From NCBI RefSeq assembly GCF_900177665.1, contig NZ_FXAW01000003.1, positions 212,655-276,654 of the forward strand: a stretch of 64,000 bases of DNA, read 5' to 3'. Under the pieces are notes generated by a model. It saw only the letters and a program-made list of their open reading frames with translations, did not search any database and was not told the DNA's origin. Made by a program: the position numbers and the translations under genes. This DNA comes from Marivirga sericea (lineage in GTDB: Bacteria > Bacteroidota > Bacteroidia > Cytophagales > Cyclobacteriaceae). Positions 1 through 15,307 of the stretch are shown here, piece by piece; within the stretch, counting starts at the first letter, position 1, and each line of letters starts with the position of its first letter.

Positions 1-16
1 CTTTGTAGCAATTTGA

Positions 17-118
17 AAGTTATTAACTTTATATTCAGCTAAGATTCATATATTTGGCGTTACCAAATATCAGAGCAAACAATTGAAATCCTTGAAAAAA
101 GTCAAGTTATATAAATGA
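17..118 (+). pseudogene. possible 3' remnant of an upstream gene
   Basis: An open frame without a start codon runs from just after a stop at 14-16 to a TGA at 116-118 that overlaps the ATG of the AraC gene (ATGA). Its end encodes QLKSLKKVKLYK. The paralogous AraC gene at 33549 is preceded by a similar frame encoding LYEKLKSLKK, and the two share 18 identical bases (83-100 and 33551-33568). This may be the decayed tail of a gene that once stood before both AraC copies, or simply a conserved leader. No function can be assigned. Confidence 0.25.
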
Positions 119-1161: not shown

Positions 1162-1170
1162 AAGTCCTAA

Positions 1171-1251
1171 TCTACAAAGTAGTAGTTCGATTTTATAATA
1201 CAAAACCTTTATTATCCACAGTAATTGCATATTGCGTGAAATTAAAACCGT
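1171..1251 (+). promoter_or_regulatory. conserved AraC/DJ-1 intergenic segment, copy A
   Basis: This gap between the AraC and DJ-1 genes aligns along nearly its whole length with the matching gap of the mirror cluster (32411-32491, other strand). Shared words include TAGTTCG, TTTTATAATA, AACCTTT, ATTGCATATTGCG and AAATTAAAAC just before the DJ-1 start. Non-coding conservation between diverged paralogous clusters suggests a promoter or regulator-binding site. Binding by the neighbouring AraC proteins is an inference. Confidence 0.5.
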
Positions 1252-1998
1252 ATGCACAAAATATTAATTCTTCTATTCCTGATTTCATTCTTAATTGGAT
1301 GTGAGAATATACCTAGAAAGCAAGAGAAAATACTCTTTGTAGTATCTAATCAAAATACCTACGGAGATACAAATCTAAATGCCTCTAATCATTTTTCAGA
1401 AATTGTTTTGCCTTATGATGTATTTAAAGAAAGAGGTTATCAAATAGATTTTGTAAGTCCAAACGGAGGTGCGATTCCTATTGGATATATCAAAACGTCA
1501 GACAGTATTCAAAAGAAGTATCTGTATGATGCTGATTTTATGAAATTATTAAAACACACACAACTGCCTAAACATATTGATCCATTAAATTATTCAGCAG
1601 TGTATTATGTCGGTGGTGGAGCGGCAATGTTTGGTGTACCTGAAAATAGAGAAATTCAACAAATTTCAAGAACTATATACGAAAATAAGGGAGTTGTATC
1701 TGCAGTTTGTCATGGCACAGCAGGAATCGTTAATTTACAATTATCTAATGGCAAGTTTTTATATGAAGGAAAGCAGGTAAATGGTTTTCCTGATGTCTTC
1801 GAAGATAAAACAGACGCTTATTATAAAACATTTCCTTTTTCTATAGAAGAAGCAATTAATAGCAATGGTGGGAAATTTACGTATTCAAAAAAAGGATGGG
1901 ACAACCACTTTGTTATTGATGGAAGACTAGTAACAGGTCAAGACCCTTCTGCATCAATATCTGTAGCACAAAAAGTTATTAAAATCCTAGAAGAATAA
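1252..1998 (+). CDS. DJ-1/PfpI-family lipoprotein (cluster A)
   Basis: A lipoprotein signal (hydrophobic stretch then lipobox LIGC at about residue 17) precedes a DJ-1/PfpI (class I glutamine-amidotransferase-like) domain. The nucleophile-elbow Cys lies near residue 153 in VSAVCHGTAG, and the C-terminal DGRLVTGQDPSAS segment is typical of Hsp31/PfpI-like members. Family members are glyoxalases, chaperones or hydrolases; the exact reaction cannot be read here. The lipid anchor places it in the periplasm, whereas most characterised DJ-1 proteins are cytosolic. It stands 90 bp after the AraC gene and 18 bp before the NTF2-fold gene. Its paralog at 31658-32410 also has a lipobox. Confidence 0.85.
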   Translation: MHKILILLFLISFLIGCENIPRKQEKILFVVSNQNTYGDTNLNASNHFSEIVLPYDVFKERGYQIDFVSPNGGAIPIGYIKTSDSIQKKYLYDADFMKLLKHTQLPKHIDPLNYSAVYYVGGGAAMFGVPENREIQQISRTIYENKGVVSAVCHGTAGIVNLQLSNGKFLYEGKQVNGFPDVFEDKTDAYYKTFPFSIEEAINSNGGKFTYSKKGWDNHFVIDGRLVTGQDPSASISVAQKVIKILEE

Positions 1999-2016
1999 AA
2001 TTAAAATAATTTAAGC

Positions 2017-2445
2017 ATGAAAATAACAATCACACCTTTGCTAATAATCTTAAGCCTTTCAACTAATTTGTTTGCTCAAGATTCAGACTATAGTCAAATT
2101 GAAAAAACAGTTTCCTACTACTTAGATGGTGGTACAAATAATGACTTTGAAACCCTGAAAAAGGCTTTTCATCCTGAGGCTAAGATGAAATACATCCGAG
2201 GAGAAAACTACACAGAGGTCAATGCTTTAGAGTTCTTTCAAAAGGCAATCAAGCCTGGTCCAAAGCAAAACCGTACTTCTATTGTAGAGCAAATCAATAT
2301 TGCTGGTAATGCGGCACATGCCCGACTTCGTATTGACTATCCCAGTTTCTACTTTATTGATTATATGAATTTGCTAAAGATTAATGGAGAATGGAAAGTT
2401 GTTAACAAGATATTTTATAGAAAATCAAAAACATCAAATAAATAA
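2017..2445 (+). CDS. exported NTF2-fold (Lumazine_bd_2-like) protein (cluster A)
   Basis: A signal peptide ending near NLFAQ is followed by a single alpha+beta cone-fold domain of the nuclear-transport-factor-2-like, putative lumazine-binding class (PF12893 type): VSYYLDGGTNNDFETLKKAF at the start and WKVVNKIF at the end. The fold serves as a small-ligand binder or enzyme; no catalytic residues can be assigned. The mature part is about 85% identical by eye to the protein encoded at 30090-30506, the strongest conservation among all cluster A/B pairs, which suggests purifying selection on this component. It is probably periplasmic and co-transcribed with the DJ-1 and SnoaL-like genes (5 bp to the next gene). 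Confidence 0.82.
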   Translation: MKITITPLLIILSLSTNLFAQDSDYSQIEKTVSYYLDGGTNNDFETLKKAFHPEAKMKYIRGENYTEVNALEFFQKAIKPGPKQNRTSIVEQINIAGNAAHARLRIDYPSFYFIDYMNLLKINGEWKVVNKIFYRKSKTSNK

Positions 2446-2450
2446 ACAGT

Positions 2451-2900
2451 ATGAGACTATTAGTATCAATCTTCCTAATCATCTTTTCTGTTAATCTTGC
2501 TAGCAGTCAAACTTATATTGGAAAAGAAAAACACATTAAAAAGATTGTAGAGAATACCAAAAAATTTTCTGAATATCTAAATACGAACAACTATAAAATG
2601 GTTGGAGCATCTTATACAGATGACGCAAAAATATTTCCTCAAGAAGGTGAAATATTAGAAGGGAAAGAGGCGATTTTAAAGTATTGGACACTTCTTCCAG
2701 GTATGAAAACGAAAAATCATAAAATAACACAACACGAAATAAGAATTGTTAAAAATACAGGCTATGATTATGGTGTTTATAGGGGAACTACTGTGAACAA
2801 AAATGGAGAACAGTCTAACTGGAGAGGTAAATATGTTATTGTTTGGAAAAAAGTGAATGGAGACTGGAAAATTTACTTGGACATTTGGAATAACTTATAA
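2451..2900 (+). CDS. exported SnoaL/DUF4440-like NTF2-fold protein (cluster A)
   Basis: A 20-residue signal peptide (ending ASSQ) precedes an NTF2-fold domain of the SnoaL/DUF4440 type: ASYTDDAKIFPQEGEILEGK is the hallmark segment in which the ketosteroid-isomerase-like superfamily places its first strand and helix, and it ends in WKIYLDIWN. Function is unknown; such proteins bind small molecules or catalyse isomerisation. It lies 5 bp after the other NTF2 gene, so the two are very likely one transcript. The mirror cluster has a paralog (28508-28957) with slightly over half the residues identical. Confidence 0.82.
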   Translation: MRLLVSIFLIIFSVNLASSQTYIGKEKHIKKIVENTKKFSEYLNTNNYKMVGASYTDDAKIFPQEGEILEGKEAILKYWTLLPGMKTKNHKITQHEIRIVKNTGYDYGVYRGTTVNKNGEQSNWRGKYVIVWKKVNGDWKIYLDIWNNL

Positions 2901-2966
2901 TCGTACATAATTGAAATAATAATTTAGATAAATAACATTTGCTAACAAAGAGCATAATTGAGATAA

Positions 2967-4412
2967 ATGAAAGCAATTCAATTAATAATTTTATTGGTAT
3001 TACAAATTACAATTTGTCAATCTCAAAATTTAATTTCGAATCAGCCCATTAAAAAAGAGATAGATGACTATGTATTTCAATTAATGGATGACTATGAAAT
3101 CACTGGGGCTGCTGTGGCAATAATTAAAGAGGACAAAGTTCTACACCAAAATTTTTATGGTTACGCAAATAAAGAATTCAATGTTCCAGTAAGCGAAAAC
3201 ACCTTATTTAAATTGCATTCTGTTACAAAGCCAATCGTATCAACCGCAATTTTCGAATTGATTGAAGAAGGAAAAATTTCATTAAGCAATTCTATTGCTG
3301 AATATTTTGATGTCGATGAAAAATATAGCTTTATTAAAGTATCACATTTATTGGCTCATTCATCTGGTTTAAGAGAAATTGAAAAAAACAGGAATACGAA
3401 AGAAGAAGACAATAAGAATTTAGTTTTTCAAACCGAGCTTCAATTCAAACCCGGTGAACAATTTCAGTATGCAGCTACCAATTATTGGCTTTTACAGAAG
3501 ATTGTTGAAAAAGTAACAAACCAAAAATTCCAAGACTATATAGTCAATCAATATTTTGGTGGCTTAAACGCAGAAGTTGTTTTTTCAGCAGATATTTTAG
3601 AAGTAGTTCCTAATAGAACATTCGAATATTATCCTAACAAATCCCAAAAGTTAGAAATTTTTGAATGGTATTTACCCGAATATTCTCACGCAGCAGGAGG
3701 GTTGAACTTGACGCTCAATAGTTTGATTTCATGGTGTCAAAAATTGAATGATAATAGATTAATTAATCAAAACACTAAGGCAAAAATGTGGGAACAGTAT
3801 CCCTATCGAAATGATAATACAGGAAGAAGTTATGGATGGGAAATTAATACTGTTAATGGTTTAAAATCCTATGGCCATGATGGTGGTGGGATCTCTTACT
3901 TGCAAGTTATTCCACAACAAGATTTAACGGTAATTTTTTTATCAAATGGCTACAAGCAAAAATATATATCTTTTAATGTAGCTACTACACTTGCGTGTAT
4001 GATAGATAAAGAGCTGAACGACCCATTTATTTTTGCTTATCAAAAATTAGATGCGGCATTTATCAAAAAAGGTGACAAAGACATCTTGAAATTAATTAGT
4101 CAACTGAAAACTAACGTGAAATACAGACATATAAATTATGAAGATTTAGTTAATAGATTAGGCTATCAGCGATTATATTATTATGAATTTCCTCGTTATC
4201 AAGACGCGATAAGAATTTTTAAGTTTAATACCCGCGAAAATCCAAAGAATTGGAATGGTTATGACTCATTGGGTGAAGCATATGAAAATTATGGAGATAT
4301 TGAGAATGCTATAAAGAACTATCAAATAGCTATCAATCTTAACAAATACAATGAACAATCGAATAATGACCGACTTGAGAAAATAATAAAAAATCTTAAA
4401 CAAAGGCAATAA
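2967..4412 (+). CDS. beta-lactamase-family serine hydrolase with C-terminal TPR (cluster A)
   Basis: A signal peptide (about 1-20) is followed by a PF00144 class C beta-lactamase/DD-peptidase-like domain to about residue 350. The catalytic SxxK is SVTK at about 85-88 and the HxG motif is HDG in SYGHDGG. The second motif, normally YxN, reads YAA in QYAATNYW, so the usual Asn is not in its expected place. Residues about 395-470 contain TPR-like helices (WNGYDSLGEAYENYGDIENA). Periplasmic esterase, peptidase or transpeptidase-like activity is expected; the substrate is unknown. It ends the plus-strand cluster A, 66 bp after the SnoaL-like gene. Confidence 0.85.
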   Translation: MKAIQLIILLVLQITICQSQNLISNQPIKKEIDDYVFQLMDDYEITGAAVAIIKEDKVLHQNFYGYANKEFNVPVSENTLFKLHSVTKPIVSTAIFELIEEGKISLSNSIAEYFDVDEKYSFIKVSHLLAHSSGLREIEKNRNTKEEDNKNLVFQTELQFKPGEQFQYAATNYWLLQKIVEKVTNQKFQDYIVNQYFGGLNAEVVFSADILEVVPNRTFEYYPNKSQKLEIFEWYLPEYSHAAGGLNLTLNSLISWCQKLNDNRLINQNTKAKMWEQYPYRNDNTGRSYGWEINTVNGLKSYGHDGGGISYLQVIPQQDLTVIFLSNGYKQKYISFNVATTLACMIDKELNDPFIFAYQKLDAAFIKKGDKDILKLISQLKTNVKYRHINYEDLVNRLGYQRLYYYEFPRYQDAIRIFKFNTRENPKNWNGYDSLGEAYENYGDIENAIKNYQIAINLNKYNEQSNNDRLEKIIKNLKQRQ

Positions 4413-4679
4413 CTATTGCTGATTTCAAACTCTTTAGTTCATTACAATAAAAAAAAACATAAAAAGTACGTAATCAATTGAACTATGGCTAAATAAATTA
4501 AAAGATATAATGAAAAAATAACAACGAATAACATCGTATTTAATTTATTACCACCTTCTTGGCTACTTGCAAAAGTCCTCGCGAACTTTGTTGGTGAGTA
4601 AATTATGTGATGGTTTTAGAGCAAATGCCATGAAACTAATCACAAACAATCACATTTTCACCAAAAAATTAAAAACTCA

Positions 4680-5498
4680 ATGAATAAATCTCAAAAATCA
4701 AGACGTAATTTTCTATGGAAAAGTGCATTAGTACTGCCGTCACTCCATTTTGGCTTACTTTCTTTCACGAGTTTCAGTGATACCAATTTAGAACTGGTGG
4801 CTGCTAATCGAATACAAAGAATCGAACTGCTAACGGCTGCAGACAAAATGGATTTGCAAAAAGATTTCTATGTTAATAGACTACACTTACCATTGATTAT
4901 CGAAAGTGGAAATAGCTTTGAAGTATTGGCAGGGAATACAATAATTAAATTTATTTTAACAAGTACCCATTCCCCATTCTATCACTTTGCATTCAACATT
5001 CCAGAAAACAAAATTCAAAAAGCGATTGATTGGTCTACTGAGCGCTTTCAATTAATAAAAAATGGAAAGGGCGAAAAAGTTATACATTTTAAAAATTGGG
5101 ATGCTCATGCAATCTATTTCTTTGACCCCGCAGGAAATATATTAGAGTTCATTGCTCATCATACTTTAAGTAATTCTGCTAAAAATGATTTCAAACCAGA
5201 GGACATTTTAAATATTTGTGAAATTGGATTGGTGTCTAACAACGTACTAGCATTGGCATCCGAAATTGAATTAAAAACTGGTTTAACGGATTACAAAAGT
5301 GGGTTTCAAAAATCTTCAGATTTCAGAGCAATTGGTGATCCTAATGGTATGCTTATTTTAAGCAGAGAGAATAGAAATTGGCTCATGACTGATAAACCAG
5401 CAGTTGAAAATATGGTTTCAGTAAATTTACTGGGCGAAAGAGAGGGTAGTATTAATCTGCAAAATACTACTTGCAACATAAACATGAAGAGACAATGA
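4680..5498 (+). CDS. Tat-exported VOC (glyoxalase/dioxygenase-fold) protein
   Basis: The N-terminus carries a twin-arginine signal (SRRNFLWKSA near residues 7-16), so the protein is inferred to be exported folded, as expected if it binds a metal in the cytoplasm. Residues about 45-165 match the vicinal-oxygen-chelate fold: HLPLIIE, then FYHFAFNIPE, then IYFFDPAGNILEFIAHH, where the last Glu is a usual metal ligand. A second, degenerate half follows (IGLVSNNV, FRAIGDPNG). Substrate is unknown. A 267-bp gap separates it from the serine hydrolase upstream, with no clear promoter or terminator in that gap. Confidence 0.75.
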   Translation: MNKSQKSRRNFLWKSALVLPSLHFGLLSFTSFSDTNLELVAANRIQRIELLTAADKMDLQKDFYVNRLHLPLIIESGNSFEVLAGNTIIKFILTSTHSPFYHFAFNIPENKIQKAIDWSTERFQLIKNGKGEKVIHFKNWDAHAIYFFDPAGNILEFIAHHTLSNSAKNDFKPEDILNICEIGLVSNNVLALASEIELKTGLTDYKSGFQKSSDFRAIGDPNGMLILSRENRNWLMTDKPAVENMVSVNLLGEREGSINLQNTTCNINMKRQ

Positions 5499-5664
5499 TA
5501 TCGTATTATCTTTATAGTTACCTTCATAAAACTTGGAACTGAGAAAGGTAGTATTTACGATAAGAAAAGAAGGTAAAGATTAAATGATTAGATTATCGAC
5601 CAATTGAAAAATTCTAAAAGAATTTTCTTAGGTCATCCACTGTAAACAATAACACTAGAAGCAG

Positions 5665-6141
5665 GTGCAAAAAACGAAACGGACAAAACTGATATTTAGA
5701 AAAGCTACAAAAAATGATCTCTCAAAGATTGTGGAAATGATTGCTGATGATGTACTTGGGAAAACTAGAGAAAAGTATCAAATACCATTATCGAATCAAT
5801 ATCTAAACGCTTTTGAAAATATAAATGCTGACCAAAATCAAGAATTGATTGTTGTAGAAAACGAAAACACTGACATTATTGGGACTTTACAATTATCATT
5901 TATTCAATATCTGACTTATTTTGGTGGGATTAGGGCGCAAATTGAAGCAGTGAGAATAAGGAAAGACAAAAGAGGACTAGGAATTGGAAAAAAAATGTTT
6001 CATTGGGCAATAAATAGAGTAAAAGAACGAAATGCTCATTTGTTACAATTAACGACTGACAAAAAAAGACCGGAAGCAATCAAATTTTACGAAGATTTGG
6101 GATTTGAGGCAACTCATGAAGGAATGAAACTATATTTTTAA
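5665..6141 (+). CDS. GNAT-family N-acetyltransferase
   Basis: A single GNAT domain covers the whole 158 residues: FRKATKNDL at the start, the acetyl-CoA pyrophosphate-binding motif A in VRIRKDKRGLGIGKKMF (R/Q-x-x-G-x-G/A form), and the motif B segment AIKFYEDLGFEATHEGMKLYF at the end. The start codon is GTG at 5665, because the first beta-strand of the fold (KLIFRKA) begins only a few residues later and the next in-frame ATG would remove it. Cytosolic; the acceptor is unknown. It stands alone, 166 bp after the VOC gene. Confidence 0.85.
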   Translation: MQKTKRTKLIFRKATKNDLSKIVEMIADDVLGKTREKYQIPLSNQYLNAFENINADQNQELIVVENENTDIIGTLQLSFIQYLTYFGGIRAQIEAVRIRKDKRGLGIGKKMFHWAINRVKERNAHLLQLTTDKKRPEAIKFYEDLGFEATHEGMKLYF

Positions 6142-6328
6142 TAAAAAATCAATTGTACACCATAATAACTTTTTTTGGTTCTCACTCATCTATGAAGATC
6201 CGTTCAGTTCTTTCTAAATTGGTTTGTATTGACTTACTTAAAAGCTTAGAAAAAAATCATAAAATTTAAATAAAAATAACCTAGAAATTAACTTTAAATA
6301 AATCTAATCACTCAATTTAAATTTATCA

Positions 6329-7423
6329 ATGTCTAAAAATAAATCATTACTGATTTGCCTCATCATCCTTTTTATTCTCGGGTGCAAAAATGAAAAAAAA
6401 CAAAATCTCATCGCGTTATCGAATGAAAAACAAAATGAAGTAAATGTCTATTTAAAAAAGCAAGTTCAAAACACACTGGGATTAGCAGTTGCGATAGTAA
6501 AAGAAGGACAAGTTATTTATGAAAACTATTTAGGAAAAGAAGATCTTAATGGTAAACCTGTTAGAAAAGAAACCATATTCCCGCTCTATTCTCTTTCCAA
6601 ACTTATCACCTCTACGGCAGTTTTTCAATTAGTAGAGCAAGGCAAAATTAATCTCGATGATAAACTATCTCTATACATTGATAAATTACCTGCAAAATGG
6701 GGGGATATTGAAGTTAAGAACTTGCTTACTCATTCTTCAGGCCTTCCCGATTACAATTTAATGCAAGGAGAGGTTTCGGACAGCAAAACCATGAAAGTTT
6801 TAATCCAAAATGAGTTGCGTTTTAAGACAGGAGAACGGTGGGAGTATAATCAAACAAACTATTGGTTTTTAACAAAAATCATCGAAAAGATTACAGGTAA
6901 AAGCTACGAAAGCTATGTAATTGAAAATCAGTTTTCAAACCACAATATTTTGTTTTCATCAAATTTCATTGACCCTATTCCAAACAGGAGCTTCAAATAT
7001 ACTTTTAATAATGATTCTAAAAAGTGGGAGAAAATAAGTCTCAACTTTGGGAAAAGAGCTAACTCTGCTGGTGGAATAAACTTAACGTTGAATGAATTTA
7101 TTGAATGGACCCAAAAGTTTGATAAAAACAAATTGATCAACCCTAATACAAAAATTAAACTATGGACCCCATTTGAGTACGAAAAACCGTTTTATTACGA
7201 GGATGAACAAGATAGGTTCTTATACGGTTGGCAACAATATTCGTCAAATAACGCAGTGTCTTATGGATATACAGGTGGCCTGGTGACAGGATATAGAAAA
7301 TTCATAGATCAAAACATGACGATTATTGTTCTATCAAATGGACTGAAAGACAATCCCATTCACAATAATATTATAAATAAAATTGCTGGAATTATAGATG
7401 AAAATTTAATAGAGAGTCGTTAA
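6329..7423 (+). CDS. beta-lactamase-family serine hydrolase lipoprotein with altered motifs
   Basis: The lipobox is FILGC near residue 19. The PF00144 domain has the nucleophile motif SLSK at about 88-91 and the usual LLTHSSGLPDY segment. Two other motifs deviate: the YxN position reads YNQ in WEYNQTNYWFL, and the HxG position reads YTG in SYGYTGGLVTG. It most resembles the cluster A hydrolase at 2967 (TNYW, the NRxFxYY/KYT region, AGGINLTLNE), so it is probably a local duplicate lacking the TPR tail. The loss of the C-terminal-motif histidine may change or reduce activity. Periplasmic side of a membrane inferred. Confidence 0.82.
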   Translation: MSKNKSLLICLIILFILGCKNEKKQNLIALSNEKQNEVNVYLKKQVQNTLGLAVAIVKEGQVIYENYLGKEDLNGKPVRKETIFPLYSLSKLITSTAVFQLVEQGKINLDDKLSLYIDKLPAKWGDIEVKNLLTHSSGLPDYNLMQGEVSDSKTMKVLIQNELRFKTGERWEYNQTNYWFLTKIIEKITGKSYESYVIENQFSNHNILFSSNFIDPIPNRSFKYTFNNDSKKWEKISLNFGKRANSAGGINLTLNEFIEWTQKFDKNKLINPNTKIKLWTPFEYEKPFYYEDEQDRFLYGWQQYSSNNAVSYGYTGGLVTGYRKFIDQNMTIIVLSNGLKDNPIHNNIINKIAGIIDENLIESR

Positions 7424-7547
7424 AGCCAACTCTTTCATAAAGGATAGTTCAAGCCTTTGCTAACATTGCACCCTATGCATTTTTATGGAATCATAAAACA
7501 TTATCAATCTAGCTAAATGAAAAAAACGAACTACATTCTAGAGCAAT

Positions 7548-8393
7548 ATGATGGAAATTAAAACCTTAGAAGACGTAGATAGAAAAGAAATTCTAAAAGT
7601 ATTTAATGAATCTTTTTCAGACTATCTCATACCTTTTCAATTATCACAGGAACAATTAGCATTAAAAATGTTAGCTGACAAAACCGATCTTATGCTATCA
7701 GTCGGAGTTTTTGAAAATTCACATCTCATAGGTTTTATTCTGCATGGATTTGACGAAATCAACAACGAAAAAGTCATTTATAATGGAGGAACAGGAGTTA
7801 TACCTAAAAAAAGAGGTTCAGAACTAACAAAACAAATGTATCGTTTCATTCTACCTATTTTAAAAGAAAACAAAATTGACAAACTTCAACTTGAAGTAAT
7901 CAGTGAAAATATTCCAGCTATTCATTCCTATAAAAAATGTGGTTATGAAACCAAAAGAGAACTAGTTTGCTATAAAGGTGAAATAATGATCTCTCAAACA
8001 AATGAAAAATTAAGCATCGAAAAATTACGATATTATGATTGGGATCTGATGCAATCATTCTGGAGTACGTATCCTTCCTGGCAAAGCTCAAAAAATGTTA
8101 TCAACGATTTAAACGATAGCTACATTTCATTAGGTGCCTATCTCGAAAACCTTTTGGTTGGCTATGTTATTTATAATTCAAATAATAATCGAATACAACA
8201 AATTGCTATAAGTTCAGATTTTAGGCGAAAACTGGTAGCTTCAACTTTAATTATGGAGATTATCGAAACATATGGTAATAAACTATCTTTTATCAATGTG
8301 GATAAACGTTTCAAACCTATAAATACATTTTTGCAAAAAATAGGATTTAGAAGTTATCTTGAACAGATAGAAATGGAATTACATTTAGCATAA
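7548..8393 (+). CDS. tandem GNAT-family acetyltransferase
   Basis: Two GNAT-like halves are visible. The first (about 1-145) contains YNGGTGVIPKKRGSELTKQM, a motif-A-like acetyl-CoA loop, and IPAIHSYKKCGYETKRELVCYKG. The second (about 150-281) has LLVGYVIYNSNNNRIQQIAI, then VASTLIMEII and FLQKIGFRSYLEQIEMEL. Duplicated-GNAT proteins of about 280 residues are a known arrangement. The acceptor is unknown. Either of two adjacent ATG codons (7548, 7551) can serve as start. It is the last gene before the GC-rich island. Confidence 0.82.
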   Translation: MMEIKTLEDVDRKEILKVFNESFSDYLIPFQLSQEQLALKMLADKTDLMLSVGVFENSHLIGFILHGFDEINNEKVIYNGGTGVIPKKRGSELTKQMYRFILPILKENKIDKLQLEVISENIPAIHSYKKCGYETKRELVCYKGEIMISQTNEKLSIEKLRYYDWDLMQSFWSTYPSWQSSKNVINDLNDSYISLGAYLENLLVGYVIYNSNNNRIQQIAISSDFRRKLVASTLIMEIIETYGNKLSFINVDKRFKPINTFLQKIGFRSYLEQIEMELHLA

Positions 8394-8399
8394 TTGATC

Positions 8400-9530
8400 C
8401 CCGCTAGCGTAAGCGTGTCGCTTGTATTCAAACTACCTACCTCTGATGAGGCCTCTTAGGTACACAGTTATCTTTACAGCAACAAATCCACCACCATGCG
8501 CATTGCCTAATTTCCCTACATCCCTTCCACAATCCAAAAAATTATCCAAAGCCCATAGCTCCCACAGCCGAAAGCCTTTAATTTCCCTAAAGGGTAAATC
8601 AAAGGCCCTCAGCTAACCAACTGCACCTACCCGCACAATCCTTCCCTCATAGCTTTTGCTTTTTTTTCTGTTAAGCAGATAAAGAGGTAAAAAAGCAAAA
8701 GGAAGCGGTCTTTTTGGCTCCCAAGCCAAAAAGTTGTTGTTTGATATACCAGCCGCACTGCCAGGCACTATGGTGTGCTGCCCTTGGGCTGCGGCAAAGG
8801 GTCTCGCCAGCATTGGCTTCAGGCTTTAAATAAGTATTAATCTCTAAGGTATTTAAAGACAAAAGCCAACCCCTTCGGGGCAAGTGCTGTCATGCCCCTT
8901 GCAGCTTAGCCCCAGTGCATCACGGCAACCTACCTGGTCTGTTCCTTTAAACCTCCGCTTCGCTACTGTTAAAAGCAACAGCCCCCGGTTGCCAGAGTTA
9001 GGCTCGCCTGCGGGCGCCCCCGGGCTGCGGCTTGTCATGGTTTTTGTAGCGCTCCTTAGCAAAGCCCCTTTGAAAAAAAGGCGCTTTACTATTCCCACAG
9101 CAAGTATAATTCACCCATGCTTTTCAGATCCCTTTCTTCAATGGCTGTATTAAACTTGCTTATTTCTTCCCAACAAAAAACCACGCCAAGCCTTGTTCGC
9201 TCCGTTACTCTCCGCTCGTGGCTAGCCCCCGTTTCCTTCGGTCACTCTCGGTCTACCACCCGGGGTCGCACTCGCAGACGGCTCGACACACAGCGGATTG
9301 CAAACCATTCCGTAAACTCCATTATTTGCAACCGCTCTTCCTGCGTTCCTCCATACCTCAGCTTCCCGACATCAATGCCTTGATCAAACTGTTGCACTAA
9401 GACGATATGACAGCATTCCACATCTTTTCCCAAATTCCCCACCACCCGTTTAAGGTGCAGCTTTTAGCTGCAATGAATTAACCCCAGGAATTTGGATTAT
9501 GGTTTATTTGATTCGAGCAGTTAAAGATAT
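8400..9530. other. GC-rich island without credible genes
   Basis: Base composition changes abruptly at about 8400 from strongly AT-rich to roughly balanced and returns near 9480. All open frames here are short, overlap on both strands and show no protein-like character. Structured pieces are visible: an inverted repeat TTTTTGGCT...AGCCAAAAA near 8713-8734, a perfect hairpin GCAGCT-TTT-AGCTGC at 9457-9471, and many short GC-rich words. It could be a decayed mobile-element segment or multicopy intergenic sequence. The minus-strand phrase NLGKDVE near 9430 recalls the start of single-stranded-DNA-binding proteins, but nothing after it fits. Confidence 0.55.
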
Positions 9531-9539
9531 CTTCAATAA

Positions 9540-9705
9540 ATAAAAAAAGAGGAAAGCAATATCGGGCTGCTTTCGCTTTTAGGCCGCAAGCCCAAGCCTT
9601 TGGGTTTTTTGAGAAATCTCCACCGCCAGCTGGCGGTAGTATTTCCCAAAAAAGGCTTGCCCCCTAGCGAGTCAGCCCGGAAAAAAAGGCTTTCTCTTTT
9701 CTTTT
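9540..9705. repeat. long imperfect palindrome (about 165 bp)
   Basis: Nested inverted segments share one centre. The centre is a perfect 16-bp palindrome ACCGCCAG/CTGGCGGT at 9622-9637. Moving outward are GAGAAAT opposite ATTTCCC, AAGCCTTT.../...AAAAGGCTT, CGGGCTG (from about 9564) opposite CAGCCCG (about 9674), and outer purine-rich AAGAGGAAAGC opposite GCTTTCTCTTTT. The arms differ by small insertions. It could form a cruciform or, if transcribed, one long hairpin RNA. A 285-bp AT-rich stretch without visible features follows up to the next gene. Confidence 0.7.
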
Positions 9706-9990
9706 TTTTTATTTTTTTCTTTTCTCTTTTGAAAATATTTCCCTGTGGTTTGTAGGTTTACTAGTCTGTATTTCTTCATAGCTTCATTTAGATAAATTAG
9801 CATTACTTAATAGATTTACATAATTCTCTAAGCTATTAATGATACAGGAATGTAAATAGGTAAGTCAATAAAGGAAAACAGTCAACGCATTGAAAACCTT
9901 TACGCGTACATGAACATTAATAAGCTACTTATTTCAATAGCTTCCTTCAACGATTTACTTTATTAATGATTCATAATTGTTATCATATTT

Positions 9991-10575
9991 TTAATTGGCA
10001 TCTCTGATTTTATATGACAATGAAACCTGAATAGACCTATTAAATATTTTCACCATCCTATCATCAAATTGCGCTAGATTAGGATAAGCAATGCTTGGAA
10101 TTACCCCCAATATATACCGTAAATTGACAGTTATTTTTTCATTTACAAAATATGAAGAACCTACTAAAATGGAAAGGTCAGCTCGTTTCGCGTATGGAGA
10201 TTTCGCAACATTGACATCGTAATCATTCCTACCAAATAGTAACAGTCCTGACTCAATTCCAGCCTCAACATTAAAATTGCCCAGTCGATAACCAATGAAA
10301 ATTGGGAGGTTTATATAGTACAAGTTTTCTGAGTCAGCCCCTTTCTCAACAAAAATAAATTCACTTGAGATGTTTACCTTTTCAGAAATATCACAAAGAC
10401 CTAATAAACCAATCTGGAAACCACCACCCCAATCGTAATTAGCGACTCTTTCTGCTGATTCATCATTAAATGAATAGCCTGAAAAATTTCCTCCAGCTTT
10501 CATAAAAACATTTAATTGAGCATTTGCCTTTTGAATTACAAATACTGCTAATATTAAAAGGATATTTCTTTTCAT
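9991..10575 (-). CDS. outer-membrane beta-barrel protein (PorT-like)
   Basis: A signal peptide (KANAQ at about residue 19) is followed by alternating beta-strands typical of the small eight-stranded PorT/OMP_b-brl_2 family: LNVFMKAGGNFSGY, FQIGLLGLCDISEKVNISSEF, LPIFIGYRLGNFNVEAGIESG and the closing strand IQVSLSYKI. The usual length is about 190-220 residues, matching 194. Such proteins are abundant in Bacteroidota and mostly of unknown role. It sits between the long palindrome and the structured intergenic region, transcribed on the minus strand. Confidence 0.78.
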   Translation of the reverse strand: MKRNILLILAVFVIQKANAQLNVFMKAGGNFSGYSFNDESAERVANYDWGGGFQIGLLGLCDISEKVNISSEFIFVEKGADSENLYYINLPIFIGYRLGNFNVEAGIESGLLLFGRNDYDVNVAKSPYAKRADLSILVGSSYFVNEKITVNLRYILGVIPSIAYPNLAQFDDRMVKIFNRSIQVSLSYKIRDAN

Positions 10576-11160
10576 TGAAATCGATTTTTCTAGTCTTCCA
10601 AAATTAATGAAGTTATGACAGCTAGCAAAAATAATTTGCGTGGTGGTCAGAATAAGAGGACGAGGATTTCCATAAATGACTCTATGCTAGATTGCGCACT
10701 TTTCCAAAAAGCTTTTTACTAGCTTTCCTGCGTCAGGACATTAAAAAAATCAATCCAAACATAGTGAAAGTTACAGGCATGCGGATGAGAAAGATGACAA
10801 GAGTTCGCGTTGCCGGCTACAAAAAAAATCTCCAGCATCCTTCCCAACTACCAGACCCTTCATGCTCGTATTTTTTGTTGTGCCGCTCTTGCATCTATCT
10901 CACCGTTCCTGTGTGGATGCGCACTATGTTTAAATTAATTTTTAGAGTGCGCATCGCCAGCCGGTGGTTGGTGGCGTACGTTCGTCTTCGTCCAGCGTTT
11001 AGTTTAACGCGGTTTCGTGTTCAGTCTGAAGGTTATTATTTCCTTCGGTTTTTGTGGTTTGAGATTAATTTCTCGCCATTGCCATTTTAGTTTTATTCCC
11101 TGATGGGTTTGGCCTGCCAGGTCTTTATTTTTTTGATCATTCCCCTGCAGACTGGACACA
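10576..11160. other. intergenic region with a series of stem-loops, possible structured RNA or attachment region
   Basis: No credible gene lies here; the 132-residue plus-strand frame reads like non-coding DNA. Between 10916 and 11046 four stem-loops follow one another: GATGCGCACT/AGTGCGCATC (10916-10925 with 10946-10955, perfect 10-bp arms), CGCCA/TGGCG (10955-10959 with 10972-10976), GCGTT/AACGC (10995-10999 with 11006-11010) and GAAGG/CCTTC (11028-11032 with 11042-11046). The first two are mutually adjacent. The stretch is GC-richer than its flanks and directly adjoins the phage-like cassette, so it may be a non-coding RNA, a recombination site or a multicopy repeat. Confidence 0.45.
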
Positions 11161-11185
11161 AAAAAACCGTAGCTATGAACTACGG
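11161..11185 (-). terminator. intrinsic terminator overlapping a stop codon
   Basis: On the minus strand the hairpin CCGTAG-TTCATAG-CTACGG (11185-11167) is followed by seven T. The stem includes the last codons of the 61-residue protein and the loop contains its TAG stop (11175-11173). It would end the minus-strand cassette transcript. Confidence 0.8.
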
Positions 11186-11358
11186 CCTTTCTTCTTGATT
11201 TTCTTGACCACCCATTTCATGGCCAATGACATACAAAAACTAACTAATGCTCCGACAGCTGCCAAAATGCAAGTCTTGATAATATCAGCACTTTGCAAAT
11301 TCACAAGGACTGTTAGGATTGTTCCTCCAGCTGTGCCAGCCTTACCGTGGACTTGCAT
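11173..11358 (-). CDS. small membrane protein, holin-like
   Basis: This 61-residue protein has one or two hydrophobic segments (about 11-45, including IIKTCILAAVGALVSFCMSLAM) and a strongly basic tail KWVVKKIKKKGRSS. Size, hydrophobicity and charged end resemble small phage holins, but no family can be named with certainty. Its ATG lies 17 bp inside the end of the preceding gene, which points to translational coupling, and its stop codon lies inside the terminator loop. It belongs to the minus-strand cassette 12771-11173. Confidence 0.6.
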   Translation of the reverse strand: MQVHGKAGTAGGTILTVLVNLQSADIIKTCILAAVGALVSFCMSLAMKWVVKKIKKKGRSS

Positions 11359-12004
11359 CTCCCTTGTTTTTTACCTCAGGTAGTGGAGGAATTTTTACCT
11401 GATCATCCACCGTCACCTGACTGACTGCAGTCAGGACACTGGCGCCAACAGTCAGATATCCTGCAACTGTAATCAAGCCAGCTGGTAATGTGATAGGCGC
11501 ACCTAAAATAGCACCGCCTGCAGCAGCCAATACCAAACCAATTGTCCGCAATTTTCTAAACAACTTTGGTGTGGGCTTTTTGACCCTTTCTAAAATATTC
11601 ATAGTTGATTTCTCTTTAATAGTGATATAAATATGATTCTGCTTCTCTTGGGCCTCTTCAAAGACTTTTAAAAGCTTATCCATTGCTTCATTCGATCGGA
11701 TTCCTTTTCCTGTTCCTGTCAGCTCCGAGACTGGTGCGATGCAGCCTTCCAGTTCTGTTCTCGCATCATTCGCAGGATGGATTAAAATCCAACTCCTTTC
11801 AGGAACGCTCTTCAATATCAGATGAAATCCCCTTTCATGGGTAATCCTCTTTTCCATTAGATATCTCCCTTCAGGAATACAACTGACAAAAGGCTGGTTC
11901 TCCTTCCAAGGAAGTTCAATGGTATGGCAGATTTTTTCACTGCCATACCTTAGAATTCCATTCGTTCCGCTCGTCCTATAATTTCGAATAAGTTCAAAAC
12001 TCAT
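11342..12004 (-). CDS. DUF5675 protein fused to a short membrane tail
   Basis: Residues about 1-130 match the DUF5675 family: GILRYGSEKICHTIELPWKE near the start, CIPEGRYLMEKR, then ILIHPANDARTELEGCIAP. The family is found in phages and in multicopy bacterial cassettes; a cell-wall or lysis-related role has been suggested only by context. From about residue 139 (MNILERVKKPTPKLFRKLR) a second, hydrophobic module begins (LVLAAAGGAILGAPITLP, then AGYLTVGASVL). In my recollection of Bacteroidota genomes this second module occurs as a separate small protein, so this looks like a gene fusion. It lies 11 bp after the upstream gene's stop and overlaps the holin-like gene. Confidence 0.75.
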   Translation of the reverse strand: MSFELIRNYRTSGTNGILRYGSEKICHTIELPWKENQPFVSCIPEGRYLMEKRITHERGFHLILKSVPERSWILIHPANDARTELEGCIAPVSELTGTGKGIRSNEAMDKLLKVFEEAQEKQNHIYITIKEKSTMNILERVKKPTPKLFRKLRTIGLVLAAAGGAILGAPITLPAGLITVAGYLTVGASVLTAVSQVTVDDQVKIPPLPEVKNKGDASPR

Positions 12005-12015
12005 TGCTAAAAAAA

Positions 12016-12771
12016 TCAGACGTTATCAACCTCCACCAATGCTAAAGCATTGAAAGCACCATTTTTAAGCGGATACATGGTTCCATTCACCTCTTGAAGG
12101 AATTCCACTCCAAAAAGCAAAAAGATGGGCTGATCACCAGCTGTAGGTACAGTGGCAGTCAAACTAATAGCCGCCTCGGTTTGTGGACCAATTGCTATCT
12201 CGCTACTTTCATCTGTCCCCAGACTGAATGTTTCCTCAGCAAAATCCACTTTACTTGCAGCTGCAACCAAGCGCATATGCGATGCGCCTGCAGGTGCTGC
12301 AAAGGTGTTCTGCGGAATAAAATCCGGAATGTTTACTGTTGCTTCACCCGTAGCCCTGTCAATATTGGCTACAAAGGGTGCATACATAGTCGCATTCAGT
12401 TTTCCGCTTTGATTGAACTCAAAGCCTTTCAGCAATTCAATATCACCTTCAATAGCCGTTCTTTCGCCTCTATCGTTGGATGTATCGCTTTTCACGACCT
12501 TGACCATTTCTCGGGTCATTCGGCTGGCCACTCGACCATCAGCTGCCTTCAAAAGCAAAGGTCGAACGGAAGTCCTTAAAAGCCTTCCAGCTTTTCCAGC
12601 TCGCCCGAATTCAGCACCATTTTCTCGAGTCCTTTGGAAAGCTGGATCATTCTTCATCCGCTCTTTGTCAATGCCTCCTTTTTCCCTGGCCAGATAGCCA
12701 TCTTTCGTTTTGTAAAAAGACAAATCTCCGATTTTGCCTTTCAGTTTGATAATACCCTTTTGTCTTGCCAT
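12016..12771 (-). CDS. conserved uncharacterised protein of the DUF5675 cassette
   Basis: A soluble 251-residue protein starting MARQKGIIKLKGKIGDLSFY; this start (12771) is preferred over an upstream ATG because the conserved sequence begins here. The N-terminal third is basic (KTKDGYLAREKGGIDKERM, then FQRTRENGAEFGRAGKAGRL); the rest is beta-rich (DFIPQNTFAAPAGASHMRL, then VEFLQEVNGTMYPLKNGAFN). I recognise it as a family that recurs, often in several copies per genome, beside DUF5675 in Bacteroidota, but no function has been established. A structural or nucleic-acid-binding role is possible from the basic, glycine-rich N-terminus; this is inference. Confidence 0.75.
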   Translation of the reverse strand: MARQKGIIKLKGKIGDLSFYKTKDGYLAREKGGIDKERMKNDPAFQRTRENGAEFGRAGKAGRLLRTSVRPLLLKAADGRVASRMTREMVKVVKSDTSNDRGERTAIEGDIELLKGFEFNQSGKLNATMYAPFVANIDRATGEATVNIPDFIPQNTFAAPAGASHMRLVAAASKVDFAEETFSLGTDESSEIAIGPQTEAAISLTATVPTAGDQPIFLLFGVEFLQEVNGTMYPLKNGAFNALALVEVDNV

Positions 12772-12925
12772 AATTGAAAAATATATTTGATGAGCCACCA
12801 AAGTATTCTCTCAAATAGCGTTTGTCAAAAACTGACTTCCGCTAAAGGTCGTGTTGTCTTAATTGGCAATTATTGTCGTTAAAGCTTTCAAGAAATTGGC
12901 TATATTAGTGTATAGCATCCTTATG

Positions 12926-12947
12926 GATAAAGTATAGATAAAGTATA
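12926..12947 (+). promoter_or_regulatory. tandem 11-bp repeat, candidate operator
   Basis: GATAAAGTATA occurs twice without spacer (12926-12936 and 12937-12947), ending 5 bp before the ATG of the small HTH-like gene, within the divergent promoter region between that gene and the minus-strand cassette. The 11-bp period puts both units on one helix face. Autoregulation by the HTH-like protein is inferred. Confidence 0.5.
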
Positions 12948-12952
12948 AGCTT

Positions 12953-13150
12953 ATGATATTGAAAAGAACCGTTATCTATCCAAAGGACATACAGCGCATC
13001 ACAGGAAAAAGCGAACGCACGGGAAGAAGAATATTAGAGAAGATTCGAGAAAAAAGAGGAAAAGAAAAACACCAAATGATCACCGTTTCCGAGTTCGCAG
13101 ATTACACTGGAATAGATGCTGAAACAGTCCAGGAATACCTCACAGATTAA
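12953..13150 (+). CDS. small helix-turn-helix-like regulator of the DUF5675 cassette
   Basis: A basic 65-residue protein: VIYPKDIQRITGKSERTGRR resembles a helix-turn-helix in which ERTGRRILEKIREKRGK is the recognition helix, followed by MITVSEFADYTGIDAETVQE, a second short helical hairpin. It is divergent from the minus-strand cassette with 181 bp between starts, the classic arrangement of a regulator and its target operon. In my recollection similar small proteins accompany DUF5675 cassettes in other Bacteroidota. No close family name is offered; a DNA-binding role is inferred from composition and placement. Confidence 0.68.
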   Translation: MILKRTVIYPKDIQRITGKSERTGRRILEKIREKRGKEKHQMITVSEFADYTGIDAETVQEYLTD

Positions 13151-13304
13151 GCCAAATTTTAAGGTTATAATCCAGAATTTTCACGCCTTTTGTACATAAA
13201 ATTTGCCCTTTTTTGCGTATATTTAGTATAACAAAGAAAAGTTCTTTGGCAGTATGTAGTGGAAATTAAGTCATTAAACGGCAACAATTGAAAATAATTC
13301 TTTG

Positions 13305-13321
13305 GTGTCCAATTAGTGTCC
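13305..13321 (+). promoter_or_regulatory. direct repeat GTGTCC at 11-bp spacing
   Basis: GTGTCC occurs at 13305-13310 and 13316-13321. It lies in the 270-bp AT-rich gap after the HTH-like gene, ahead of a GC-rich hairpin (about 13374-13396, GTGGTCC...GGGCCCAC) and a terminator. It could be a protein-binding site or an arm-type site of an element end. No recombinase gene is present. Confidence 0.3.
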
Positions 13322-13418
13322 ATAAACTTCAATAAATGGCTAAATTATTGAAATACAATATTTTAAAGGCTTCATGTGTGGTCCAGGTGGGCCCACTTTC
13401 AGAATTCATCTGAACACA

Positions 13419-13455
13419 AAAAGCCTTAAATCTTACGATTTAGGGCTTTTTTTTA
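13419..13455 (+). terminator. intrinsic terminator
   Basis: AAAAGCCTTAAATC-TTAC-GATTTAGGGCTTTT forms a stem of about 13 pairs with one mismatch, followed by more T residues. A-rich and T-rich flanks would let it work on both strands. It closes the cassette region on its right side. The 400 bp to its right (13456-13859) hold no credible gene. Confidence 0.75.
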
Positions 13456-13756
13456 TTTTATGTTGTCTAGTCCTGAAATAGCGTTACACAAAAATTAACA
13501 AATTCTTTCCAACTCATAATGCACCTATTTTCCCGAAATGTAGAGACACGAAATGAAAGGAAAAGTGCTAAGCGGGTAATAAATACTGATAACCTGAGTT
13601 CGAGTCGTCTTTGGAAATTCAGATTTTCATATAATTCAATAGACAAGGCGTCTTTTTGATGATATAGCGGGCTATGTCCAGGGAAGACAACGCAGTATAT
13701 AGGATTATATGGAAAAGTTTTTCGCATTCCCACCTCTAAACAGCGATTTTCTGCCT

Positions 13757-13785
13757 AAAAACCCCTTGCAATAGCCCGCTATTGC
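13757..13785 (-). terminator. possible intrinsic terminator of the minus-strand deoxyribosyltransferase operon
   Basis: A perfect hairpin GCAATAG-CGGG-CTATTGC (minus strand 13785-13768) is followed after AAGGGG by five T. It lies 75 bp beyond the end of the decayed deoxyribosyltransferase gene. The gap between stem and T-run makes it a weak example. Confidence 0.4.
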
Positions 13786-13859
13786 TTCAGAATTTTTAGT
13801 TGAAACTCATTGTTTATAGGCGTTCTGAATCCTAAATAAGAATCGAAGTCAGGTTGATT

Positions 13860-14297
13860 CTACTCCAATAGAAATATAAATAAATCTTTTGGAGAAGAAA
13901 AAATTGCATGAAAAGGCTCTTCAATCATTGCGTTTAATTTAGAATCTAAAAATGAAGCTCTTATATCTGTATGTAGTCCTAATATTTGTTTAGAGGATTC
14001 AGATAGAAATTTTTGAGTGTATGCAATTCCTAGTTCAAAACATGCTCCTTCATCTGGTACTCTTCCATCTAGTACAAAAAGAAAAATATCACATTTCAAT
14101 ACTTGTTGTATATCAGTAAAAAAGATAGTCTTATTTCTTTGGACAGTAGTCATATCCTGGGGCGCTTTATCTAGCTCAACACCATCTCTTTGAGGGAAAA
14201 ATATGTCAAAACCGAGTAATTACAATTGGTCAACTAAAGATTTATTGAAGTCTTGTTCCGCCATATTAAATAATAGTCCAGCAAAGTAAATTTTCAT
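13860..14297 (-). pseudogene. nucleoside 2-deoxyribosyltransferase-like gene with an in-frame stop
   Basis: Read through one TAA (14222-14220), the frame from ATG 14297 gives about 145 residues: MKIYFAGLLFNMAEQDFNKS, stop, then LGFDIFFPQRDG, and later CDIFLFVLDGRVPDEGACFE followed by LGIAY. This matches the Nuc_deoxyrib_tr family (PF05014): the N-terminal (Y)FAGPLF-like strand, and D-x-G-x-x-x-E-x-G carrying the nucleophilic Glu. These enzymes cleave or exchange nucleobases of deoxynucleosides, or hydrolyse related nucleotides. The start overlaps the stop of the upstream membrane-protein gene (ATGA). The nonsense codon sits before the active site, so the gene is probably dead, although a second start at 14153 leaves the catalytic half open. 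Confidence 0.75.
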
Positions 14298-15307
14298 TGT
14301 TGTAAAGCGTTTTCTATTTTTTCTTTAAATTCTTTTGGGTCGTCAACATGTAATCCAAGGAGAATAAACTTCTTTTTTCTACCATAAAGACCAATTAATT
14401 CATTCTCCGTGTTCAAGCTGATTATAATATTATGACTTTCAATTTCTCCTAATGGCGAAAGCGTTCTTGTCAATACGTTTTTTTCTAATGATTTACTTGA
14501 TAGTTCTACTTTGTCAATATCCAAAAAGGGAATTTCAACTTCATTTAAAATACCATATTTTAAAGTTAAACTGTCTTCATTGATGGAAATTGGTCTTTGG
14601 GTTAGCGATTTAGCAAAACCAAATATTTGAATAGCACTGTAGATACTCAAGGCTGTTAAACACCAAGCCGCAATTATACTCCATTGAGTTAGTAAAAAAT
14701 GAATAACTACTGTTTCAATACCTATAACTAAAATAAATGCATATAGAAGGGCAGGTGTTCCACTTGTCTTATGGTATGTATATTCATTGGCACCAACTTC
14801 TCGTGTTTTCCAATTAATGAAGCTATAGTAAAAAACCGCAACTTCTGTCACAAATGGTAGTACAAGTGCTCTAGGTAAAATTTCATAACAAGTACTTTTA
14901 AGGGCATTATAAAAATCTGGAATTGAACCTTTAATTCCTTTATATTTTCTAATAGCATTACGAACTTTAATTAGCACAAAAACAATTATTGACATTTCAA
15001 TTATTGGTAAAACCCAAGTTTTGAAAATTGACAAATATGATTGGCTCTCTTTGGGTAAAAAAAATGAACCAATTAAAAGCCCAATTATCATAAATGGTAC
15101 AACTGTAGTTTTTGCAATTTTTGATTTTCGAATGAGCAGAAAATAAACAAGTGGCACCGTCAGAAGTAGGTCCGTTGTTAATGCGAAGCTCAAAGTATCA
15201 TTTCCTTTAAGAAATGAAGACTTCATTAAAAACATCAGAATTCCAAATAGCCCAATAGGAATCCCAAAATTGATAAAATGTCGGTTTATAGGTGTTGTTT
15301 TGTTCAT
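14294..15307 (-). CDS. multi-pass membrane protein with C-terminal PH-like domain
   Basis: About six to seven hydrophobic segments fill residues 10-230 (FGILMFLM, LLLTVPLVYFLLI, PFMIIGLLIGSFFL, FVLIKV, YAFILVIGIETVVIHFLL, AAWCLTALSIYSAIQIFGF). The last about 100 residues are soluble and beta-rich (RPISINEDSLTLKYGILNEV, IPFLDIDKVELSS), resembling a bacterial pleckstrin-homology domain. Function is unknown. It overlaps by 4 bp the deoxyribosyltransferase-like gene, so the two formed a translationally coupled pair. A decayed duplicate of its C-terminal domain lies at 28205-28503. Confidence 0.7.
   Translation of the reverse strand: MNKTTPINRHFINFGIPIGLFGILMFLMKSSFLKGNDTLSFALTTDLLLTVPLVYFLLIRKSKIAKTTVVPFMIIGLLIGSFFLPKESQSYLSIFKTWVLPIIEMSIIVFVLIKVRNAIRKYKGIKGSIPDFYNALKSTCYEILPRALVLPFVTEVAVFYYSFINWKTREVGANEYTYHKTSGTPALLYAFILVIGIETVVIHFLLTQWSIIAAWCLTALSIYSAIQIFGFAKSLTQRPISINEDSLTLKYGILNEVEIPFLDIDKVELSSKSLEKNVLTRTLSPLGEIESHNIIISLNTENELIGLYGRKKKFILLGLHVDDPKEFKEKIENALQQ

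Follow-up and report, generated by a model that had tools for sequence, protein, structure and literature searches.

A DUF5675 cassette of Marivirga sericea as a probable attachment-end module of tRNA-seated integrative islands in Bacteroidota

We analysed a 64,000-nucleotide stretch of the Marivirga sericea genome (contig NZ_FXAW01000003.1 of GCF_900177665.1, positions 212,655 to 276,654; hereafter the window), which contains a cassette composed of an operon for a 251-residue protein (A251), a DUF5675 protein and a 61-residue membrane protein (M61), and a divergent gene for a 65-residue protein (H65). Our data make it likely that this cassette is the attR-side end module of tRNA-seated, satellite-like integrative islands that occur across Bacteroidota and carry a lysis or release operon, and that the window harbours a decayed copy. 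The anatomy of the cassette and islands, the tRNA ends, the empty site of one island and the excised circle of one family member are established. The compact, self-contained cassette proposed in an earlier note on this DNA thereby gives way to an attachment-end module of islands that span 17-34 kb where measured and, when intact, hold an integrase, a replication initiator and a DnaC-like helicase loader at their far end.

The cassette ends at a duplicated tRNA-Met end

The genome comprises 26 contigs (4.74 Mb), and the window sits on the contig labelled C16. A251 (12016-12771, minus strand) is the first gene of a single operon that is directed inward from the attachment end. It is separated by 11 bp (12005-12015) from the DUF5675 gene (11342-12004, minus strand), which in turn overlaps the M61 gene (11173-11358, minus strand) by 17 bp (11342-11358), and a terminator-like hairpin, read from the sequence, lies behind the operon at 11160-11187. 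H65 is encoded divergently on the plus strand (12953-13150). The operon, its gap, overlap and terminator and the divergent gene had been described before; the reading frames proved to be in their stated places, and the gap and overlap are exact.

On the far side of H65, the plus strand displays three features. A paired direct repeat, GTGTCC-ATTA-GTGTCC (13305-13323), is proposed to provide integrase arm sites, with similar repeats flanking the attP core of the excised circle described below. It is followed by the attR core, a tRNA-Met 3' end (13381-13398) that matches a whole tRNA-Met as a direct repeat, and by a terminator on the chromosomal side of attR (13414-13455), which has near-identical counterparts behind the tRNA-Met cores of several further Marivirga copies. 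The GC hairpin and terminator previously noticed at 13375-13455 are present, with the hairpin being the tRNA-Met 3' end, an attachment site, and the terminator standing behind it. The sequence TCCAGGTGGGCCCAC occurs exactly twice in the genome, 27.6 kb apart and in direct orientation; the tRNA-Met-end 15-mer lies at 13382-13396, and its second genomic copy, at that distance, closes a complete tRNA-Met gene. Given this duplication, we propose that the first 13.4 kb of the window (1-13398) represent the right part of a 27.6-kb tRNA-Met island, an assignment based on the direct repeat and on gene order. Its left end would be the whole tRNA-Met at C16:198411-198485, about 14.2 kb before the window. 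The element thus shows the duplicated tRNA 3' end at its far end that characterizes integrative elements.

The same arrangement recurs elsewhere. In Marivirga copies, the tRNA 3' end is found about 230 bp beyond the H65 stop codon, mostly followed by a terminator. For a broader test, we collected 111 cassettes with a divergent H65, yielding 92 distinct flanks, of which those from related species are not independent, and counted exact matches of 14-15 nt to a probe set of 16 tRNA ends only. Such a match was present in 54 of the 92 flanks, some of the matches being whole tRNA genes. Fifty of the 54 were in the same orientation, and in 39 the distance to H65 was 229-244 bp. No tRNA end was present in control stretches taken from within the cassette (0/92), nor in base-shuffled flanks over five rounds of simple shuffles. 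Among 45 loci listed in a repeat scan near the attachment site, some but not all displayed arm-like pairs.

Sister islands carry an integrase and replication genes

Three A251 genes are present in the genome, one in the window on C16 and one each on C17 and C11, along with three H65 genes. The copies share a 2.56-kb block (10690-13253 in the window) of ~89-91% DNA identity, and their flanks are unrelated apart from a repeat common to C16 and C17 at the hairpin end. This repeat (window 8769-9045 and 9172-9748; L004 4012-4898 for the C17 copy) is 85-94% identical and lies just outside the hairpin end. In the C17 copy, about 0.5 kb with a 143-residue open reading frame (ORF) is inserted between the operon and the hairpin-bearing end block. 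Both sister islands start at a tRNA gene, tRNA-Arg on C17 and tRNA-Pro on C11, followed by genes for an integrase, a 403-residue protein, a replication initiator-like protein and DnaC, with the cassette beyond. To the cassette ends, they span ~24 kb (C17) and ~34 kb (C11).

Intact Marivirga islands follow a common plan. Their core half runs from the tRNA through a tyrosine integrase, a protein of ~401 residues and a replication initiator-like protein to a DnaC-like helicase loader, and their cassette half runs from cargo that varies and is often anti-phage through a hairpin unit with a 54-residue ORF (S54), M61/DUF5675/A251, H65 and the arm repeats to the tRNA 3' end. The integrase matches the Phage_integrase, Phage_int_SAM_5 and Arm-DNA-bind_5 families, and the replication proteins of the sister islands match phage replication-initiation (phrog_15768/1032) and DnaC-like loader families. 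Judged from these assignments, the sister islands possess replication genes of their own, as a satellite should, and a tyrosine integrase at the tRNA end, as an integrative element should; the window island does not have the latter. When two integrases and four core proteins were used as tblastn queries, the window island gave no match. We take the window copy to stem from an island that has decayed, with loss of the end bearing integrase and replication genes. The earlier statement that integrase and replication genes are missing consequently holds for the window copy, but not for the sister islands, which carry both.

Within the genus, the tRNA-Met end pattern was present in seven of 10 genomes, and the island between tRNA-Met and cassette could be read in six, measuring 17 to 33 kb. 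The tRNA-Met integrase is kept in three of these (G148, G149 and G151) and gone in the other three (G000, the window genome; G154; G055). A tRNA-Arg island of M. arenosa ABR2-2 (G149) is likewise bounded by the integrase and, opposite it, the cassette; its empty counterpart is preserved in strain BKB1-2 (G148), where uninterrupted sequence behind tRNA-Arg matches attR and flank of the ABR2-2 island. Across the ten genomes, 11 of 12 near-full-length DnaC-like genes share a contig with A251 and lie no more than 28.4 kb from it. Conversely, a DnaC-like gene occurs no farther than 31 kb from 12 of 17 A251 loci, counting the BKB1-2 circle. A genome of another genus (G072) has the integrase adjoining H65 itself, beside tRNA-Ser or tRNA-Pro.

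Relatives of A251 (E 0.001) were detected in 56 of 148 genomes of the family, with up to 15 per genome, including solo relatives without DUF5675. Named genomes contained at least 578 relatives, of which 80 were kept, representing Flavobacterium and its kin, Cyclobacteriaceae, Chitinophagaceae and others. Recurrence in several copies across Bacteroidota, as stated in the earlier note, is borne out by these counts. After removal of three of the 80 loci without a usable A251 ORF and 20 in which one or both flanks fell short of 2.6 kb, 57 remained. The cassette proteins co-occur in this set: H65 is divergent within 700 bp of A251 in 54 loci, DUF5675 is present in 52 and M61 lies on the same strand in 50.

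The well-conserved 2.56-kb block with its unrelated flanks could also suggest that the cassette is a stand-alone compact element or satellite, as first thought, and a second, partial cassette (DUF5675, M61 and S54) stands in tandem in M. arenosa ABR2-2 (L148, 1248-8651). However, tRNA ends occur on one side of the cassette, the DnaC-like gene of the two sister islands is placed 17.8 and 28.3 kb away with integrase and tRNA farther out, and the excised circle is 25 kb long, so that we give this explanation almost no credence. A 2.5-kb transposon was dropped as a candidate in light of the tRNA ends, the sister islands and the circle. At the L148 tandem locus, a PKD/fasciclin protein is encoded between operon and hairpin, a position that constitutes a second cargo slot.

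A deposited plasmid appears to be an excised island

Besides the chromosome, the Marivirga sp. BKB1-2 genome includes a contig of 25,320 bp whose ends fall within its DnaC gene. Over the 14 kb compared, it is identical to the circular record NZ_CP129969.1 (L394, 1-25320), deposited for this strain as 'plasmid p1'; PMC11225308 refers to it as a plasmid and reports nanopore sequencing. The circle matches the chromosomal tRNA-Met island from attachment site to attachment site in circularly permuted order, with 98.0-98.8% identity and ~1% gaps, and in its attP the H65-side and integrase-side repeats surround one core. From this alignment, plasmid p1 seems to be the tRNA-Met island of the BKB1-2 chromosome in excised, circular form. 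Being a permuted chromosomal island with a rejoined attP, it indicates that a family member excises, and for this one member the circular form expected of an integrative element is at hand.

We scanned the 15 ORFs of at least 200 residues outside the cassette of the BKB1-2 island with Pfam or PHROGs (PHROGs in the case of the integrase). Capsid, portal, terminase and tail families were not represented among them, nor were relaxases, while three (401, 317 and 448 residues) fell into no family at all. In the window, seven genes left of the cassette were scanned with Pfam, revealing an AraC-type protein, a DJ-1/PfpI protein, two beta-lactamase-fold proteins, two acetyltransferases and one protein without a family; virion genes were absent from the eight genes of the window island that were scanned, and coverage of islands other than that of BKB1-2 was partial. 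No gene was recognised for helper capsid, packaging or late transcription, with A251 and the 401-residue protein remaining familyless.

An integrase at a tRNA, replication genes and an excised circle would also befit an integrative mobilizable element transferred by helper integrative and conjugative elements, in which the long hairpin, kept by compensatory change, would be the origin of transfer and A251/DUF5675/M61 would aid in crossing the envelope. Peptidoglycan enzymes also serve secretion systems. However, MOB-suite typed the circle as non-mobilizable, the 15 BKB1-2 ORFs include no relaxase, though the three familyless proteins are among them, and DUF5675 occupies phage lysis positions (see below). 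Conjugative transfer therefore seems unlikely to us, while deserving attention.

Across islands, the cargo comprises type IIG restriction enzymes, PLD and PD-(D/E)XK nucleases, TmtA-like proteins, Schlafen-type helicases, reverse transcriptase, MazG-like proteins and ordinary proteins. Several islands thus contain type IIG restriction-modification, TmtA-like, Schlafen helicase or reverse transcriptase genes, and lysis-like genes stand under a divergent regulator, as would suit a defence unit in which the operon responds to phage by altruistic lysis of its host. Against such a role, the module is fixed at the attachment end, whereas the defence cargo in the interior of the islands is variable, and we regard it as improbable.

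DUF5675 and M61 resemble a lysis module

The DUF5675 protein of the window matches its Pfam family with an E value of 9.2e-28, the domain covering residues 5-116 and preceding a hydrophobic tail. In the structural model, the domain has a pLDDT mostly above 90. Four residues, His76, Asn79, Gly87 and Cys88, are invariant among 32 sequences. The top fold match is DpaA (8ikr), of the YkuD-type L,D-transpeptidase family, in whose motif His and Cys stand in a similar order. The fold match is weak, and comparison of DUF5675 with the PDB by sequence yielded no match. Based on the model, DUF5675 is a candidate YkuD-type peptidoglycan enzyme.

In IMG/VR, 435 stretches encode DUF5675, and we inspected the neighbourhoods of the best 80, each up to 10.5 kb long. 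A small transmembrane ORF adjoins DUF5675 in 40 of 65 viral loci, as compared to 20 of 65 control anchors. In two checked viral contigs (L299 and L302), DUF5675 is followed by a Phage_holin_4_1 gene, paralleling the DUF5675-small membrane protein order of the cassette. In contrast to the cassette, A251, H65 and M61 were found in none of the 80 viral loci. The holin-like and helix-turn-helix-like labels given earlier to M61 and H65 are backed by profile matches, but weak ones with E values of about 0.01; for H65, these are HTH_17 (0.012) and a Cox-like excisionase PHROG (0.011), and we propose that it acts as an excision factor or regulator.

The occurrence of DUF5675 as a phage protein family, sometimes beside a holin, raises the question of whether the cassette represents the lysis genes of a decayed tailed phage. 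IMG/VR pattern scans retrieved no relatives of A251, H65 or the 401-residue protein, 50,697 phage records produced no match to A251, and neither the best 80 DUF5675 stretches nor the 15 BKB1-2 ORFs provide cassette partners or virion genes, respectively. An ordinary prophage remnant, which the earlier note had named as an outcome that would overturn its proposal, is thus very improbable. The lysis or release module of a satellite-like element, which joins two of the possibilities that the note had listed, is instead our best reading, inferred from islands with their own replication genes and from the DUF5675/holin context.

A251 defines a wider protein group

A251 has no family match in Pfam, PHROGs or NCBIfam. 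Its model (pLDDT 77, pTM 0.72) combines a helical N-terminal part with a beta-sandwich. A known capsid fold was considered and rejected, as PDB and BFVD returned loose beta-sandwich matches only. Membership in DUF6266 was likewise rejected, with an hhalign probability of 1.1 against seven DUF6266-type proteins and no Pfam match.

Several further observations concern the relatives of A251. Solo relatives often have a DUF6266-type gene directly upstream (L064-L067, L072, L073 and L085), several per genome, and lysis genes are not adjacent to them; of the ten members of this DUF6266-type cluster, one (from L061) was tested in Pfam. Longer A251 loci encode a protein of ~515 residues that forms a cluster of 15 ORFs, for example L045:6849-8399(-) and L084:6820-8394(-). 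The one member tested, from L045, matches a terpene-synthase C-terminal domain (PF19086, 3.8e-6), and we take these proteins to have a regulator-like N-terminal part and degenerate metal motifs. A distant A251 relative of ~267 residues occurs near conserved genes in several genera (L086-L089, L093 and L094), presumably a gamma-glutamyltransferase and a SulP transporter.

A structured hairpin unit borders the operon

The stem-loop-rich DNA reported earlier at 10690-11135 is real, as judged by fold z-scores of -4.0 and -5.5 for the two strands and by covariation. It includes a long imperfect hairpin (10757-10931, plus strand), supported by the fold scores and by compensatory changes in 10 of 39 predicted pairs in a 13-sequence alignment, whose base pairs extend across the ATG of the 54-residue ORF. 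This conserved and putatively coding ORF, S54 (10926-11090, plus strand), is present in 12 of 146 genomes and 10 of 84 genera. Although the reading frame is kept, codon-position differences of 2226/1462/2451 provide a weak signal, and we did not retain S54 as a clear coding gene. A terminator-like sequence (11100-11135, plus strand), recognised from sequence and alignment, ends the unit and is convergent with the operon. Rfam returned no family at gathering score over 8300-14300. Possible roles of the hairpin unit are those of a small gene under regulation and of a site for replication or packaging, and the two may be combined. Two further copies of hairpin and S54 (L142 8186-8365 and L143 7563-7850) have no A251 gene in the surrounding 16 kb.

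Discussion

We propose the following course of events for the islands. H65, encoded ~230 bp from the core, would help excision or control the operon, and the excised island would replicate by means of its own initiator and loader. A251, DUF5675 and M61 would act late: DUF5675 would cleave the peptidoglycan, M61 and the hydrophobic tail of DUF5675 would breach the inner membrane, and the island would be released by lysis. Because capsid, terminase and relaxase were not recognised, the island would probably be a satellite of a helper phage. Satellite behaviour is our leading reading and is as yet unproven. More tentatively, and with rather less conviction, we consider that A251, at the head of the lysis operon, may be a new particle or packaging protein, and that islands which excise, replicate and lyse the host in this manner may spread defence genes through their own lysis.

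A number of findings weigh against this picture. Lysis release, transfer and the helper phage are inferred, none of them having been observed, and island sequence is absent from the IMG/VR scans, where packaged satellites might be expected. With the 16-end probe set, 38 of the 92 flanks have no tRNA end; the 2.6 kb on the H65 side contain an integrase at only 11 of the 57 named loci; and at five of the 17 A251 loci of the genus, that of the window among them, no DnaC-like gene is found up to a distance of 31 kb. Many A251 relatives are found outside islands, solo or beside DUF6266-type genes, so the role of A251 may not be tied to lysis. The PHROG holin match of M61 (E 0.0099) and the fold match of DUF5675 to DpaA (probability 0.80, E 0.26, TM 0.34) are both weak. 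The scanned window genes resemble ordinary host genes or cargo, or are familyless, and parts of the 27.6 kb may therefore be later additions. Finally, the circle differs by ~2% from the BKB1-2 chromosomal copy, a discrepancy that most likely reflects nanopore sequencing error.

The combination of A251, H65 and a tRNA end provides a search handle for a family of integrative elements that is common in Bacteroidota. One deposited plasmid is re-read here as an excised island. The cargo suggests a route by which anti-phage genes move among Bacteroidota. How islands leave the cell with neither a capsid nor a recognised relaxase, and why they carry lysis-like genes, are testable questions. On the more tentative reading above, the islands would represent a Bacteroidota-wide satellite-like class that was missed for want of a known viral hallmark. 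In the literature searched, largely at listing level, we found no description of this family.

Several known systems bear comparison. Tycheposons are tRNA-seated integrative elements with a tyrosine recombinase and exchangeable cargo, like the islands described here; they reside in another host phylum, and the likeness is one of description only. Charybdis elements, according to PMC12324425, are virus-like elements of ~4.6 kb in archaeal hosts that lack hallmark genes and sometimes adjoin tRNA genes. The islands share the absence of hallmark genes and a position at tRNA genes, whereas gene content differs by description. A further parallel is offered by phage satellites, namely phage-inducible chromosomal islands (PICI), P4-like elements and PICMI. 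PICMI satellites carry int, alpA, prim and defence genes, as outlined in PMC10803314. Phage satellites likewise combine a fixed site, an integrase, replication genes and defence cargo, and like the islands they do without a full set of virion genes. The islands differ from them in their Bacteroidota hosts, in having no recognised capsid-remodelling or packaging genes and no known helper, and in the A251/DUF5675 operon at their attachment end.

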